A model generated the notes under the pieces. The model worked only from the letters and a program-made list of their open reading frames with translations. It was not told the origin of the DNA and did not search any database. 38,291 nucleotides of DNA from Phycisphaeraceae bacterium (GTDB lineage: Bacteria; Planctomycetota; Phycisphaerae; Phycisphaerales; UBA1924), in the NCBI GenBank assembly GCA_021604785.1, contig BQJQ01000003.1, forward strand, positions 1-38,291. The letters run 5' to 3'. The position numbers and the translations under genes were made by a program. Below are positions 3,769 through 27,448 of the stretch, in pieces. Within the stretch, counting starts at the first letter, position 1. Each line of letters opens with the position of its first letter.

Positions 3769-4854
3769 ATGGCGAAGAAATCAACATCGAAACGAGCCAC
3801 TAAGAAGACAACAAAGAAGACGACGAAGAAAGCCGGGAAGAGGACGGCGTCGCGAAAATCGTCTCGGCCGTTCCGGGTGCTGTCGATCGATGGCGGGGGC
3901 ATCCGCGGGCTGATCCCCGCGATGATTCTCGCGGAGGTCGAGAAGCGCTCGGGCACGCCGATCGCGTCGATGTTTGACCTGATCGCGGGCACGTCGACGG
4001 GGGGGATCCTGACGCTGGGGCTGACGGCGCCGGGGCGGGGCGGTGCGCCCAAGTACGCGGCGTCGGATCTGGTGGATCTGTACCACCGGGAGGGCGAGCG
4101 GATCTTCCCGCGCCCGCTGTGGCGGAAGCTGCCCGGGGCGGCGTTTATTGCGGACGTGCTCGACGAGCGGTACCCGTCGCGGGGGATCGAGGAGACGCTC
4201 GAGGAATACTTCGGCGAGGCGATTCTGTCGGAGGCGCTGACGGACGTTCTTGTGACGTCGTACGCGATCGAGCGGCGGGACACGTTCTTCTTCAAGTCGC
4301 ACAACGCGAAGGCGCGGGGGAAGGCGTACGACTTCCTGGCGCGGGACGTCGCGCGGGCGACGTCGGCGGCGCCGACGTTCTTCGAGCCGGCGATGATCCG
4401 GGCGATCGAGGGGGCGAGGGAGGACTACTACGCGCTGGTCGATGGCGGGGTGTTCGCGAACAACCCGGCGATGTGCGCGATCGCCGAGGCGGTGGGGCCC
4501 AAGTACGACAGGCCCATGTCGGATGTCGTGGTCGCGTCGTTGGGCACGGGGCACACGAACCGGCCGATCCGTCTGGGCGAGGCGCGGGGGTGGGGGCTCG
4601 CCGGGTGGGTGCGGCCGGTGCTGAGCGTGATGATGGACGGGATGGCCGATTCGGTCGCGTATCAGTGCCAGCAGATCCTGCCCAGCACCGGGGTGGAGCG
4701 GCGGTACTGCCGGATCGACGAGCCGCTGATCGATGTGGACGACGACATGGACAACGCGAGCGAGCGGAACCTGCGGGACCTGGCGCGGTTCGCCGACCGG
4801 GTGATCGGGTCGCGCTCGGCGGACATCGACTGGATCGTCAAGACGATGGGGTGA
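3769..4854 (+). CDS. Patatin-like phospholipase with basic tail
   Basis: A 361-residue serine lipase of the patatin fold. Visible motifs are the oxyanion hole DGGGIRG (41-47), the nucleophile elbow GTSTGG (74-79, Ser76) and the DGG of the catalytic aspartate in LVDGGVFANNP (about 217-228), making the Ser-Asp dyad. The family hydrolyses acyl esters of membrane lipids. The first 34 residues are almost only Lys, Thr, Arg, Ser and Ala with repeated TKKTTKK units, like a histone H1 tail, and could bind nucleic acid or anionic membrane. The start at 3769 was chosen over an in-frame upstream GTG because a GGAGGG Shine-Dalgarno lies a few bases before it. No cyclase or other defence partner is adjacent. 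Confidence 0.88.
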   Translation: MAKKSTSKRATKKTTKKTTKKAGKRTASRKSSRPFRVLSIDGGGIRGLIPAMILAEVEKRSGTPIASMFDLIAGTSTGGILTLGLTAPGRGGAPKYAASDLVDLYHREGERIFPRPLWRKLPGAAFIADVLDERYPSRGIEETLEEYFGEAILSEALTDVLVTSYAIERRDTFFFKSHNAKARGKAYDFLARDVARATSAAPTFFEPAMIRAIEGAREDYYALVDGGVFANNPAMCAIAEAVGPKYDRPMSDVVVASLGTGHTNRPIRLGEARGWGLAGWVRPVLSVMMDGMADSVAYQCQQILPSTGVERRYCRIDEPLIDVDDDMDNASERNLRDLARFADRVIGSRSADIDWIVKTMG

Positions 4855-22926: not shown

Positions 22927-24477
22927 TTACCCGAGGAGGGCGAGGACCTGCTGCGGCTGCTGGTTCGCCAGGCTCAAGACGTTGGTCGAGGCCTGAACAA
23001 GGATCTGGTTCCGCGTCAGGTTGGCGGTCTCCTGAGCGAAGTCGGTATCACGGATGGCACTCTCGGCAGCCGCGGTGTTCTCGACGGTGACGCCGAGGGC
23101 ACGTGTGGTCGAGCCGATCACGTTCTTCTGGAACGAGCCGAGACGACCGCGGGTGGTCGAGACCTGCTTGATCGCCTGGTCGACGATCTTCTGGGCCGAG
23201 GTCAGGTCCGGGTCTGCACCGTCGACGGCGAACTCCTTGCCGCGACCGAGCTCGTCGAGGAACCCGAGGTCGGAGCGTCCGAGCTTGCGGGTCGCGACGT
23301 CCTGGAGACCGATGGCGACCTTGCCGCCGATGGTCACGTCCGAGGAGAGCTGGAAGTCGGCACCGCCACCGGTGATGGTGAACGCGGAGACCTGGCCCAG
23401 GGACTGGGAGGTGGCATCGGCGAGGGTGAACTGGACGTCGAGGAAGTCGGTGTTGATCGACAGTTCCTTGCCGTCGCCGGTCGCCTTGACGCCGTTGATC
23501 GTGCCGTCGATGTCCTGGCCATCGTCACGGACGGGGTTGGACGCGTTGGCGAAGGTGGAAGCGACCGACCCCTGAGCGTCGGCGAAGTTGGTGGCCTCGA
23601 GCTGGTAGACGCCCAAGGCACCCGCGGCACCGCCCGAACCGTCCGTCAGGTCGCCCTCGGTGACCTTGACCGAGACGTACTCGTCCGAGCCGAAGTTCGA
23701 GGAGGACAGCGTGATGCCGTAGCCCGAGACGGAGGCGACGACGCCGGTGTCTTCGGTGAAGGCGTTGACGGCGGCGGCGATCTGGGTCAGCGTCTGGGTC
23801 GAGGCGAAGCTGAGCTCACGCGAGCCGAGGGAGCCGACGATCTCGATCGAGAACGCGGACTCGCCCGAGCCGAGGTTGAGGTCGATCGTGCCCGCACCGC
23901 CCGAGGCGCTGGCCCCGAGGTTGAGGAACAGACCGGCCTTCTGAGCCGACTGGGTGACGGTCGCGTCGACCGACTGGCTTGCGCCGTCGAACTTGGCACC
24001 GTTGATCTGGAAGTCGGTGACCGTGGAGGCCACGCCGGTGACCTGGTAGTCGAAGGTGCCGTTGAGGAGCTTCTTGCCCTGGAACGACGTGGAGTTCGAC
24101 AGGCGGTCGATGGTCTGGAGGATCGAATCAACCTGGAGCTGGTTCGCTTCCTTCTCTTCATCCGAGAGGCCGGCGCCGTTGGCGGACTGCGTGAGCAGGC
24201 CCTGCAGCTCGGTCAGCATGGAGCTGATTTCCTGCAGGCCGCCTTCGGCAATGTTGATGACCTGGTCGGCACGCTCGGAGTTGCCGATTGCCGAGTTGAG
24301 CGCGGCGAGCTCGGAGCGGAGGTTCTCGCTGGCGATCAGGCCGGCGGGGTCGTCCTTACCACGGCTGATCTGCAGACCCGTGGAGAGGCGCTCGAGCGCG
24401 GTGCCGAGCTTGAAGTTGTTCTGACCCAGCACGCGCTGGGCCGTCAGGGAGGGGATGTTCGTGTTGATGCGACTCAT
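22927..24477 (-). CDS. Flagellin 1
   Basis: A 516-residue filament subunit. The N-terminal D0/D1 helices (about 1-140) begin MSRINTNIPSLTAQRVL and contain LERLSTGLQISRGKDDPAGL; the C-terminal helices (about 430-516) contain RGRLGSFQKNV and end in NVLSLANQQPQQVLALLG. The central region is beta-rich with a flagellin-IN-like segment (RELSFASTQTLTQIAAAVNAF) and a TGGGADFQLSSDV motif shared with flagellin 2. Export is by the flagellar type III system, so no signal peptide is expected. It has its own leader, putative sigma-28 promoter and terminator. AAGGA eight bases before the ATG lies in a hairpin loop (see the leader entry). CsrA control is inferred. Confidence 0.96.
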   Translation of the reverse strand: MSRINTNIPSLTAQRVLGQNNFKLGTALERLSTGLQISRGKDDPAGLIASENLRSELAALNSAIGNSERADQVINIAEGGLQEISSMLTELQGLLTQSANGAGLSDEEKEANQLQVDSILQTIDRLSNSTSFQGKKLLNGTFDYQVTGVASTVTDFQINGAKFDGASQSVDATVTQSAQKAGLFLNLGASASGGAGTIDLNLGSGESAFSIEIVGSLGSRELSFASTQTLTQIAAAVNAFTEDTGVVASVSGYGITLSSSNFGSDEYVSVKVTEGDLTDGSGGAAGALGVYQLEATNFADAQGSVASTFANASNPVRDDGQDIDGTINGVKATGDGKELSINTDFLDVQFTLADATSQSLGQVSAFTITGGGADFQLSSDVTIGGKVAIGLQDVATRKLGRSDLGFLDELGRGKEFAVDGADPDLTSAQKIVDQAIKQVSTTRGRLGSFQKNVIGSTTRALGVTVENTAAAESAIRDTDFAQETANLTRNQILVQASTNVLSLANQQPQQVLALLG

Positions 24478-24641
24478 GGGGGAGATCCTTCTCAAACAAC
24501 GTCGGAGTGCGGCCCAAAGCCCGCAACTTGGTGTGCGTCAACCCGGTCGCCCACGCTAACCGGGTCGCTCGCCCCTCCGGGGCTGGGTCGGCCCCCGAAT
24601 CCGTTCGGGAAAGACCGCATGCGTGCAGTCCTGGGCACGCC
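24478..24641 (-). promoter_or_regulatory. Flagellin 1 mRNA leader with four GGA-loop hairpins
   Basis: From a putative start near 24641 to the ATG there are exactly four GGA triplets on the transcribed strand, all in hairpin loops. They are: 24639-24622, CGTGC/GCACG with AGGA in an eight-base loop; 24609-24594, CCCGAA/TTCGGG with loop CGGA; 24583-24571, GCCCC/GGGGC with loop GGA; and 24493-24482, GAGA/TCTC with loop AGGA, which is also the Shine-Dalgarno. A further hairpin without GGA (ACCCGGT/ACCGGGT, arms 24565-24559 and 24547-24541) stands between the third and fourth. CsrA binds ANGGA or AGGA in short hairpin loops. This 164-bp stretch holds no gene. Stems were paired by eye; no folding energy was calculated. 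Confidence 0.55.
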
Positions 24642-24647
24642 GCAACT

Positions 24648-24675
24648 GAATCGGCGCCGCCGACTTGGGGGTTGA
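24648..24675 (-). promoter_or_regulatory. Putative sigma-28 promoter of flagellin 1
   Basis: Minus-strand GCCGATTC (24655-24648) resembles the sigma-28 -10 consensus GCCGATAA at six of eight positions, with TCAA (24675-24672) 16 bases upstream against the TAAA-N15 consensus. The predicted start near 24641 opens the GGA-hairpin leader. The spacing is one base off, so this is tentative. Confidence 0.4.
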
Positions 24676-24739
24676 GGCGAGCGTGCCCGATTTGTGCGGT
24701 TTTTCATCCCCGCCCCGGTGTGATGGGTCCTGGGCGCAG

Positions 24740-24772
24740 AAAAACGCCCGCGGGGATGGTCCCCGCGGGCGT
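24740..24772 (-). terminator. Intrinsic terminator of flagellin 2
   Basis: Perfect 13-bp stem (24744-24756 with 24760-24772) with a three-base loop, followed by five T on the minus strand, 31 bases past the flagellin 2 stop. The strength of the stem suggests the csrA-side transcript ends here and flagellin 1 is transcribed separately. Confidence 0.92.
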
Positions 24773-24803: not shown

Positions 24804-26363
24804 TTACCCGAGCAGCTGGAGCACGGACTGGGCCTGCTGGTTTGCCAGCGAGAGCACCGAGGTGCCCGAGCTCTGAAGGATCTGAGCCCGTGTGAGCTGG
24901 CTGGTCTCCGCCGCGAAGTCGGCGTCGCGGATCAGGCTGCGGCTCGAGGTGAGGTTCTCGAACTGCGTTTGCAGGCTCCGCTGGGTGGTGCCGAGGACGT
25001 TGCGTTCGAACGCGCCCATTCGCCCGCGGAGGATGGAGACCTCGTCGATCGCGGTGTCCAGGATCGCCTGGGCGTCGGTGAAGTCGCCGCGGCGGACGGA
25101 CTCTTCGATCGAGTTGGTCTTGCCCTTTTCGAGGCTTGAGATGGTCTGCACGGACCCGTTGACGAGGGTGCCCCCGAGCAGCGAGGCGGCGACGGACTGG
25201 ATGCCGAAGCTGACCTGCTGCTGGGCGGTGATATCGGGCCCGATCTGGAAGTTGGACCCGCCGCCGGTGACATAGAAGGTATCCGTGCCCAGCGAGGGGT
25301 CGGTCGCGAAGGACTCGTCGATGAGCAACTCGAGCCCCAGCGATGGGGAGTTGATCGAGATCTCGAGCCCGCGCCCGGTCGAGAGCGAGCCGTTGATGAG
25401 GGCGGAGATGTCTCGCCCTTCGTCGCGGGTGGCGGTGACGAGGTTGGGGCCGGCGAAGGAGAAGGTGCCGTCGAGCGCGGGGAAGTCCGCGTTGGCGTTG
25501 AACTTGAAGGCGCTGAAGCCGTCGTCAGCCGGGTCGGTCGGCCCGTCTACGCGTTCGACGGAGACGAACTCGTCCGCGCCGTAGCTGGCCGAGCGGATGA
25601 CTAGGCCGACCGAGGAATCAGTCGGGTCGATCAGTGAGGCCTCGACGCCGGTGAGCGAGGTGAGCTGGTTGATGCCCGCGATCATCTGGCTGAAGGACTG
25701 ACCGGAGGCGAACGAGAGCTCCCGGACACCCTCGGACCCCTGGATCCGCAGCGTGAGCGCTGAGTTGATGACGCCGGCGGTGGAGATGTTCGCGTTGCCG
25801 TTGACGAACAGCGAGCCCTTCTGGGCCGAGTCCACGACGTCCACGTCCACCTGCAGCGAGCTCTGCCCGACGAAGCTGGCGTTGAAGACCTGGGCCTTCA
25901 CGATCGTCGAGCTTGTGACGCCCGAGAGGGTGAAGTCGAGCGAGCCATCGAGGAGCTTGAGCCCGCCGAAGGTGGCGGTGTTCGAGATCCGGGTGATGGA
26001 CTGGATCGCCGAGTCGATCTGCAGCTGGTTGGCGGCGCGTTCCTCGGGGGAGTTGCCGCCGGTGTTGGCCGCCTCGACCATGAGCGCCTTGACCGAGTTG
26101 AGCAGCTCATTGATCTCGGCGAGCGACGACTCGGTCGTGGCGATCATCGAGCTTGCCCGCTCGGTGTTCTGGATCGCCTGATCGATGCCGTTGAGATCGG
26201 TGGCGATCCGCTCGGAGATAATGAGCCCGGCGGGGTCGTCCTTGCCTCGGTTGATCCGGAGCCCGGTCGAGAGGCGCTCCAGGCGCAGCTCGAGCTCGGA
26301 GTTGTTCCGGTTCAGGTTGGTTTGGGCGATGACGCTGGGTACATTCGTATTGATGCGAGCCAT
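24804..26363 (-). CDS. Flagellin 2
   Basis: A 519-residue filament subunit with the same plan as flagellin 1. The N-terminal helices start MARINTNVPSVIAQTNL and include LERLSTGLRINRGKDDPAGL; the C-terminal helices include RGRMGAFERNVLGTTQRSL and end LSLANQQAQSVLQLLG. The middle part carries RELSFASGQSFSQMIAGINQ and TGGGSNFQIGPDI, matching equivalent motifs in flagellin 1, but the rest is clearly divergent, so the pair is an old duplication. The ATG is preceded by GGAGG, enclosed in a CsrA-type hairpin. It follows csrA by 87 bases; no promoter was seen in that gap, so it may be on the fliW-csrA transcript. A strong terminator follows it. Confidence 0.96.
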   Translation of the reverse strand: MARINTNVPSVIAQTNLNRNNSELELRLERLSTGLRINRGKDDPAGLIISERIATDLNGIDQAIQNTERASSMIATTESSLAEINELLNSVKALMVEAANTGGNSPEERAANQLQIDSAIQSITRISNTATFGGLKLLDGSLDFTLSGVTSSTIVKAQVFNASFVGQSSLQVDVDVVDSAQKGSLFVNGNANISTAGVINSALTLRIQGSEGVRELSFASGQSFSQMIAGINQLTSLTGVEASLIDPTDSSVGLVIRSASYGADEFVSVERVDGPTDPADDGFSAFKFNANADFPALDGTFSFAGPNLVTATRDEGRDISALINGSLSTGRGLEISINSPSLGLELLIDESFATDPSLGTDTFYVTGGGSNFQIGPDITAQQQVSFGIQSVAASLLGGTLVNGSVQTISSLEKGKTNSIEESVRRGDFTDAQAILDTAIDEVSILRGRMGAFERNVLGTTQRSLQTQFENLTSSRSLIRDADFAAETSQLTRAQILQSSGTSVLSLANQQAQSVLQLLG

Positions 26364-26364
26364 T

Positions 26365-26382
26365 GCAATCCTCCGTGATTGC
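26365..26382 (-). promoter_or_regulatory. CsrA-type hairpin over the flagellin 2 Shine-Dalgarno
   Basis: On the transcribed strand GCAATC, ACGGAG, GATTGC: a perfect 6-bp stem with a hexaloop whose first five bases fit ANGGA. The GGAGG Shine-Dalgarno begins in the loop and the stem ends two bases before the ATG. Bound CsrA would block initiation. This is the textbook geometry of a CsrA/RsmA site. Confidence 0.7.
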
Positions 26383-26396
26383 TGCTTGCGTGAGAT

Positions 26397-26445
26397 GCCC
26401 CGCCTTGCGGTCCTGGGGGCGTGGAGAGCGCTGGTGTCCTTGCTC
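26397..26445 (-). promoter_or_regulatory. Two upstream GGA hairpins in the flagellin 2 leader
   Basis: The two other GGA triplets between csrA and flagellin 2 are also in loops. One is GCCCC/GGGGC (26420-26416 with 26401-26397) with CAGGA opening a 14-base loop. The other is GAGC/GCTC (26445-26442 with 26429-26426) with AAGGA in a 12-base loop. They lie about 40 and 65 bases upstream of the site at 26365, within the distance a CsrA dimer can bridge. The stems are short, so support is moderate. Confidence 0.35.
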
Positions 26446-26450
26446 GAGAG

Positions 26451-26840
26451 CTAGGCGGTTTCCTTGGCGGGGTGGGGCGAGGGCGGGGGAACCCGCGTGA
26501 CGCCCGGGGCCCCGGCGGGCTTGGGTTCTTGTCCGTTGGGCGCGGGCCCCTGCGATGGGGGCGCCTTGGACGCGAGCCCCGACACCTTGGGCGTCAGAGG
26601 GCGTCCGGTCTTGGCCGGCCCGGGTCTGATGTCGGCGGTCGAGATCGCGTCGTCGCCGAGGCGGGACGCCTCGGTGTTCTCGCGCTTGATCGCTTCGTAC
26701 ACCTCTTTTCGGTGTACGGCAATCCGGGTGGGCGCCGTGATGCCAAGGCGCACCTTGTCTCCCCGGATATCGACGACCGAAATCTCGATGTCGTCGCCGA
26801 TCATGATTGTCTCGTCGCGCTGCCGTGAGAGCACCAGCAT
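26451..26840 (-). CDS. csrA: Carbon storage regulator CsrA with long C-terminal tail
   Basis: RNA-binding translational regulator. Residues 1-55 are a normal Csr[21 protein letters not shown], then [21 protein letters not shown], with the RNA-contacting Leu4, Arg6 and Arg44 all present. The protein is 129 residues long, about twice the usual 55-75. The extra 65-70 residues are a Pro-, Ala-, Lys- and Ser-rich tail of low complexity. AAGGAG before the ATG contains a GGA, and another GGA lies about 13 bases upstream, which would allow autoregulation. fliW is the upstream neighbour (161-base gap) and flagellin 2 the downstream one. The tail frame has no stop or frameshift sign and keeps the local codon use. 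Confidence 0.95.
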
Positions 26841-27001
26841 GCGTGAGCTCCTTTTCGCGTCCGTGCCCGGGAGCCCTGCGTTCGCAGGAAGGGTCGGTCT
26901 GTCGTTGCGTCGGTCGTCTTCTCTGCCTCGTCCCTTCCCTCGGGGTGCACCGATCGCGCACGCATTGCGCACGGCGGACACCCTCCGGGAAACACCCCGG
27001 C

Positions 27002-27448
27002 TCAGGCCGACTGCACCTGCGGTGCGTCGCCGACCTTCACCAACGGGTGACGTGTCGTCCACCGTTTGTCCGCGAGCACCATCTGCTCGCCGCCCTTCGA
27101 GATCGTGTTGATGACCAGCGGGCCCTGGAGGTTCCCAGTGAGCTGCTCGTCAACCTTGTTCACGATCACGAAGACCTGCGCATCGTCGAGCTTTTCGAGC
27201 CCGAGATCCGTCATCTGCTCGGCGCGGATCGGCACGGAGAACTCCTCGACGAAGAACGTCGGGTCCGTGACGACGAACGCCAGGCTTGGGTCCTCCAGGC
27301 TCTGCAGCCAGAAGAACAAAGCGTCCTCCCCGGGCTCGAGCAAGCAGTACCGCGATTTGTCAGGGAACCCGAGGATTCCCTTGGTGAAGGTGATCACGCG
27401 GTCCTCCGCGATATCGATCACCCCAAAGCGTGTGGTCCGCACTTCCAT
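27002..27448 (-). CDS. fliW: Flagellar assembly factor FliW
   Basis: A 148-residue protein that binds CsrA and, alternatively, flagellin. In Bacillus and Campylobacter, free FliW releases CsrA from flagellin mRNA once flagellin has been exported. Visible signatures are [24 protein letters not shown], then [19 protein letters not shown], and VIVNKV near residue 95. The length is typical. ATG 27448 was chosen because a GGAG lies about eight bases before it; the frame extends upstream without conserved sequence. It is 134 bases downstream of flgL, with a GC-rich inverted repeat between them, and csrA follows. The pairing with csrA supports function. Confidence 0.95.

Follow-up and report, generated by a model that had tools for sequence, protein, structure and literature searches.

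The window, that is, the whole stretch of 38,291 nucleotides analyzed here, is contig 3 of a draft Phycisphaerales (Planctomycetota) genome and carries on its minus strand, in this order, fliW, csrA, a flagellin gene, a terminator-like hairpin, and a second flagellin gene. The genes and the RNA features of their leaders are as follows.

27002–27448, minus strand: fliW, 148 aa (Pfam FliW, 2.4e-34)
26848–26864, minus strand: candidate csrA autoregulatory site from the sequence, with ACGGAC at 26864–26859 and the csrA ribosome site at 26854–26848
26451–26840, minus strand: csrA, 129 aa, with a long variable C-terminal tail (Pfam CsrA, 6.9e-24)
26365–26382, minus strand: CsrA-type hairpin GCAATC-ACGGAG-GATTGC, based on sequence, pair probabilities, and conservation with covariation
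26371–26376, minus strand: its hexaloop ACGGAG, of the ANGGAN type (loop A in 134/135 and GGA in 135/135 relatives)
24804–26363, minus strand: first flagellin, 519 aa, directly after csrA (Pfam Flagellin_N, 2.4e-33; Flagellin_C, 2e-16)
24744–24772, minus strand: terminator-like hairpin between the two flagellins
24592–24611, minus strand: ANGGAN hairpin TTCCCGA-ACGGAT-TCGGGGG within the second-flagellin leader, with the GGA approximately 125 nt upstream of the ATG
24482–24493, minus strand: weak GAG-AAGGAT-CTC loop over the ribosome site of the second flagellin, from the sequence, 3 bp only
22927–24477, minus strand: second flagellin, its start set at the ATG of MSRINTN (Pfam Flagellin_N, 3.2e-29; Flagellin_C, 4.7e-21)

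The genes for FliW, CsrA, and flagellin are all present and linked, and csrA is followed by flagellin in 87 of the 99 relatives examined. The CsrA protein aligned to residue 66, through the C-terminal helix, with the CsrA chain in 5dmb, a FliW-CsrA complex, and the FliW protein matched FliW of 5dmb, 5dmd, and 5jak. Judging from the alignment to 5dmb, this CsrA appears to carry an extended C-terminal helix of the kind bound by FliW. A proline-rich tail (26451–26640) continues for approximately 60 residues past the conserved domain, and its length differs between relatives (open frames of about 85–350 aa). Furthermore, a second, divergent CsrA paralogue (MLVITRREGEEVVIGDPRN...) was found outside the flagellar region (genome G000, contig 122, approximately 4594–4758, locus L002), adjoining open reading frames that resemble rpsP and ndk; two csrA genes are present in most relatives. 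Phycisphaerales-type csrA was also found at L081 and L147, loci whose public records are labelled Leptolyngbya sp. PLA1 and Candidatus Taylorbacteria UBA11359, respectively; these labels look wrong. A possible flagellar-type promoter, CTCAA-N16-GCCGATTC, lies before the second flagellin at 24640–24700, 3' of the terminator-like hairpin. No hit was obtained when the region was scanned for sigma-70 promoters.

The original prediction had described a perfect 6-bp stem and a hexaloop with GGAGG inside, which the minus strand from 26382 to 26365 bears out. The loop GGA occupies 26374–26372, and the Shine-Dalgarno sequence GGAGG (26374–26370) spans the loop and the first stem base, 6 nt upstream of the ATG (26363–26361). 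Between stem and ATG there is a single base (A, 26364) instead of the two that had been claimed. RNA folding, which had been proposed as a check, gave the expected structure: in the leader context all six stem pairs were formed with a probability of 0.98–0.99, and the loop was unpaired with a probability of 0.95–1.0. Folded in isolation, the hairpin reached −7.4 kcal/mol (z −3.5), a value equalled by 1 of 200 shuffles. No Rfam family was found in the window or the region by an Rfam scan. On the two strands of 1.43 Mb of the genome taken together, just two ANGGAN hexaloops have at least six Watson-Crick pairs; of these, only the hairpin before the first flagellin coincides with a ribosome site. 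The other (L340) is flanked by a stop codon on one side and a terminator-like hairpin on the other.

Conservation in related genomes had also been named as a check, and it was found. Allowing one mismatch at most, CAATCANGGAGGATTG was present in 80 of 101 relatives; most genomes have a single copy, usually located immediately 3' of csrA. The reversed control pattern gave 0 matches in every genome of the same search. Some relatives were represented twice, once by a numbered genome and once by a named contig; identical leader sequences were counted once. Among the resulting 135 distinct leaders, the upstream columns held approximately 0.1–0.2 bits each and the core 1.4–2.0 bits, except for the free N; this 16-base core is the sole conserved stretch, and the remainder of the leader is random. 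Of 87 genomes in which flagellin adjoins csrA, 77 have an ANGGAN hairpin with 5 or more base pairs at the ribosome site, and the other 10 have stems of just 2–4 bp. Since the core alone is conserved, in 80/101 genomes, and the stem reaches at least 5 bp in 77/87, the hairpin is, as judged from these alignments, not a product of chance.

The first loop position is A in 134/135 leaders and GGA is present in 135/135, with N variable. The ribosome needs no A at this position. The pair that closes the loop is C-G in 135/135 leaders, and the next pair is U-A in 132/134. It might be argued that the locus merely has a strong, conserved ribosome site and that the stem is incidental, as the second flagellin of the same loci keeps CACGGAGGA despite stems of mostly 1–2 bp. 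We regard this as very improbable, because the 5' arm CAATC is conserved as strongly as the ribosome site itself and covaries with the 3' arm, and because, among ANGGA ribosome sites belonging to other genes of the same genome, only 2.5% have four or more stem pairs.

The compensatory changes anticipated by the original prediction were plentiful. For 97 distinct sequences the covariation score was 0.159 compared to 0.097 for shuffled alignments, and 0 of 500 shuffles reached it, kinship not being corrected in this comparison; sliding the partners against each other abolished the signal. In six of the seven stem pairs both sides change. On a tree built on CsrA plus flagellin sequence, which corrects for kinship only in part, the minimum numbers of changes from one Watson-Crick pair to another were 2, 2, 3, 2, 10, and 6 for pairs 2–7 counted from the loop, at least 25 in total, while pair 1 (C-G, at the loop) was invariant. 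The outer pairs covary, as illustrated by GCAATC/GATTGC versus ACAATC/GATTGT and by the stems GACAAAC-AAGGAG-GTTTGTC (L129) and GATGATC-ACGGAG-GATCGTC (L162). In the first-flagellin stem, the sequence of the three middle pairs is more frozen than CsrA should need. Closing-pair recognition as in RsmE would explain the freezing of the inner pairs (C-G and U-A), and that of the next three not fully. Possibly, the stem must be A-U rich and limited in strength so that ribosomes can open the hairpin.

A stem sequence that is largely frozen across the order is also what a transcription-factor site would look like, and the DNA palindrome CAATC-N6-GATTG could be bound by a dimeric factor, the RNA hairpin being a by-product. 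This explanation is highly unlikely, though we give it marginally more credit than an incidental stem. A palindrome would not account for the A and the GGAG of the loop being conserved around a free N, nor for the compensatory changes, 25 at minimum, counted on the tree. Single transitions were also unevenly distributed, with 17 on the arm where G-U pairing is kept and 6 on the other (p ~0.017, ignoring relatedness). Moreover, the leaders of csrA and of the second flagellin carry the same loop on unrelated stems.

These further leaders were explored with a scan for hexaloop hairpins in which no stem sequence was assumed. In the gap between fliW and csrA, an ANGGAN hairpin of at least 5 bp was present in 53 of 131 relatives compared to 0.4 in shuffles, whereas loops of the types C/G/T-NGGAN and ANGG(C/T/G)N stayed at chance level. 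The 52 distinct hairpins have 32 different inner arms, covary, lie 20–115 nt upstream of csrA, and are closed by C-G in 45 cases; CGCGACAC-ACGGAC-GTGTCGCG from L047 is an example. The ANGGA motif as such occurred 123 times in csrA leaders (45 expected). In L005, L022, L026, and L047 the ANGGAN hexaloops are carried by entirely different perfect stems of 5–10 bp. Similarly, the gap between the two flagellins contained an ANGGAN hairpin in 21 of 47 relatives (0.27 expected), and a control on flagellin coding sequence gave 2 compared to 2.7 expected. For fliW leaders the count was 11 of 108, against 0–5 for other first letters. In the window itself these additional sites are less well formed. The ACGGAC of the csrA leader has a stem of merely 2 bp and folds poorly, the minimum-energy fold favors a structure competing with the hairpin at 24611–24592, and the segment around the loop at 24482–24493 is predicted to pair in a slightly different register. 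In the relatives, the additional hairpins before csrA and the second flagellin imply that CsrA would also restrain production of itself and of the second flagellin. As the csrA leader of the window has just a 2-bp stem, the case for csrA autoregulation, which we consider likely, comes from the relatives.

Given the conservation, the covariation, the signature of loop and closing pairs, and the linked fliW and csrA, the hairpin is very probably a high-affinity CsrA site that presents the GGAGG of the flagellin mRNA as an ANGGA loop, with repression by CsrA and a switch by FliW. The reading as a CsrA site, put forward in the original prediction, thus gains support from the A-N-GGA-N hexaloop, the C-G and U-A closing pairs, the position at the Shine-Dalgarno sequence, and the adjacent csrA and fliW. 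The stem covers a ribosome site, is rich in A-U pairs, and has a sequence-frozen core; it could also melt as an intrinsic switch driven by temperature or the ribosome, or serve as the target of a small RNA, in either case independently of CsrA. Such a mechanism is about as improbable as an incidental stem: the GGA is unpaired in the loop and does not reside in the stem, the identity of the loop obeys the rules for CsrA, csrA and fliW adjoin, and there is no Rfam match. In addition, an intrinsic switch leaves the enrichment of ANGGAN loops alone unexplained.

Two further GGA triplets in loops had been predicted upstream of the CsrA-type hairpin, together with a possible dimer-bridging site. Both triplets exist, at 26413–26411 (39 nt upstream) and 26439–26437 (65 nt upstream), but their looped state was not confirmed, the Gs of both being mostly paired (unpaired probability 0.22–0.41). 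Neither triplet is found in the sister species L004. A dimer-bridging site in the window is therefore unsupported. Across the order, ANGGA was seen 80 times between csrA and the first flagellin compared to 48 expected. Clear second hairpins were found in two genomes outside Phycisphaerae and in a few relatives only: the flagellin leader of L221 contains TCCGGGC-AAGGAT-GCCCGGG plus GTAATC-AAGGAG-GATTAC, and that of L226 ATTTGGAC-AGGGAC-GTCCAAAT plus TCAATC-AAGGAG-GATTGA.

These two loci were the only ones located before flagellins among 25 fetched in a phylum-wide covariance-model search, the 25 being from outside the order or from one genus of the same family; the other matches were weak. In other planctomycete classes, flagellin leaders are mostly without the hairpin. 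We considered and rejected a CsrA regulon of stemmed ANGGA sites extending across the genome, as these sites showed no excess over other loops in the 1.43 Mb scanned on both strands (approximately half of the genome); the scan addresses stemmed sites, and CsrA is also able to bind unstructured GGA. The CsrA of Phycisphaerales may be dedicated to the flagellum, with strong sites concentrated in its own operon (csrA, both flagellins, and some fliW), a proposal for and against which we see the chances evenly balanced. If true, CsrA would also hold down its own production within a FliW-type system, which would make the system a self-limiting homeostat.

By analogy with B. subtilis hag and C. jejuni flaA, a CsrA dimer on the hairpin would block the 30S subunit. 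FliW that carries no unexported flagellin would bind CsrA and so relieve the block, and flagellin would be made only while flagellin is being exported. The cell is thus probably able to shut off flagellin production via the CsrA and FliW encoded just upstream. Planctomycetes were named by Zere et al. (2015) among the groups in which CsrA may be controlled through FliW (PMC4682653). The data presented here add comparative evidence for a FliW-CsrA-flagellin switch in Planctomycetota, suggested earlier from gene content only (PMC4682653), and point to autoregulation of csrA in a FliW-type system. No description of a Planctomycetota flagellin leader was found in the open-access literature. The covarying CsrA-type hairpins of the flagellin, csrA, and second-flagellin leaders also constitute an unusually large natural set with which the loop and stem letters needed by CsrA can be tested.

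The mechanism as such is already known from B. subtilis hag and C. jejuni flaA. As in the 5'UTR of C. jejuni flaA, ANGGA is placed in a hairpin loop over the ribosome site, compensatory changes occur in relatives, and CsrA would be under the control of FliW (PMC4894983). Whereas flaA has two adjacent hairpins, the first flagellin of the window has one strong hairpin; the tandem hairpins of L221 and L226 correspond to the SL1/SL2 arrangement of flaA (PMC4894983). In B. subtilis, FliW and CsrA control the synthesis of flagellin and one CsrA site of hag overlaps the Shine-Dalgarno sequence (PMC6529632, PMC7652899), a layout that resembles the one described here. In contrast to B. subtilis, where csrA is translationally coupled to fliW, approximately 160 nt separate the two genes in the window, and in relatives this gap often has an ANGGAN hairpin of its own. 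There are also two flagellin genes, and CsrA is longer.

The hairpin at the ribosome site of Pseudomonas hcnA and the loops of RsmZ share the A(N)GGAX loop closed by C-G and then U-A, and RsmE reads these two pairs semi-specifically in both RNAs (Duss 2014, PMC4005645). The hcnA loop ACGGAU is the commonest csrA-leader loop here, although the RsmE system relies on small-RNA control instead of FliW and acts on other genes (PMC4005645). E. coli CsrA, when subjected to SELEX, preferred hexaloops with flanking AC and GU pairing, and it represses translation of its own mRNA via sites in the leader (PMC7652899). The autoregulation proposed here would be alike in kind, but unlike in E. coli its basis is the covarying ANGGAN hairpin before csrA in the relatives.
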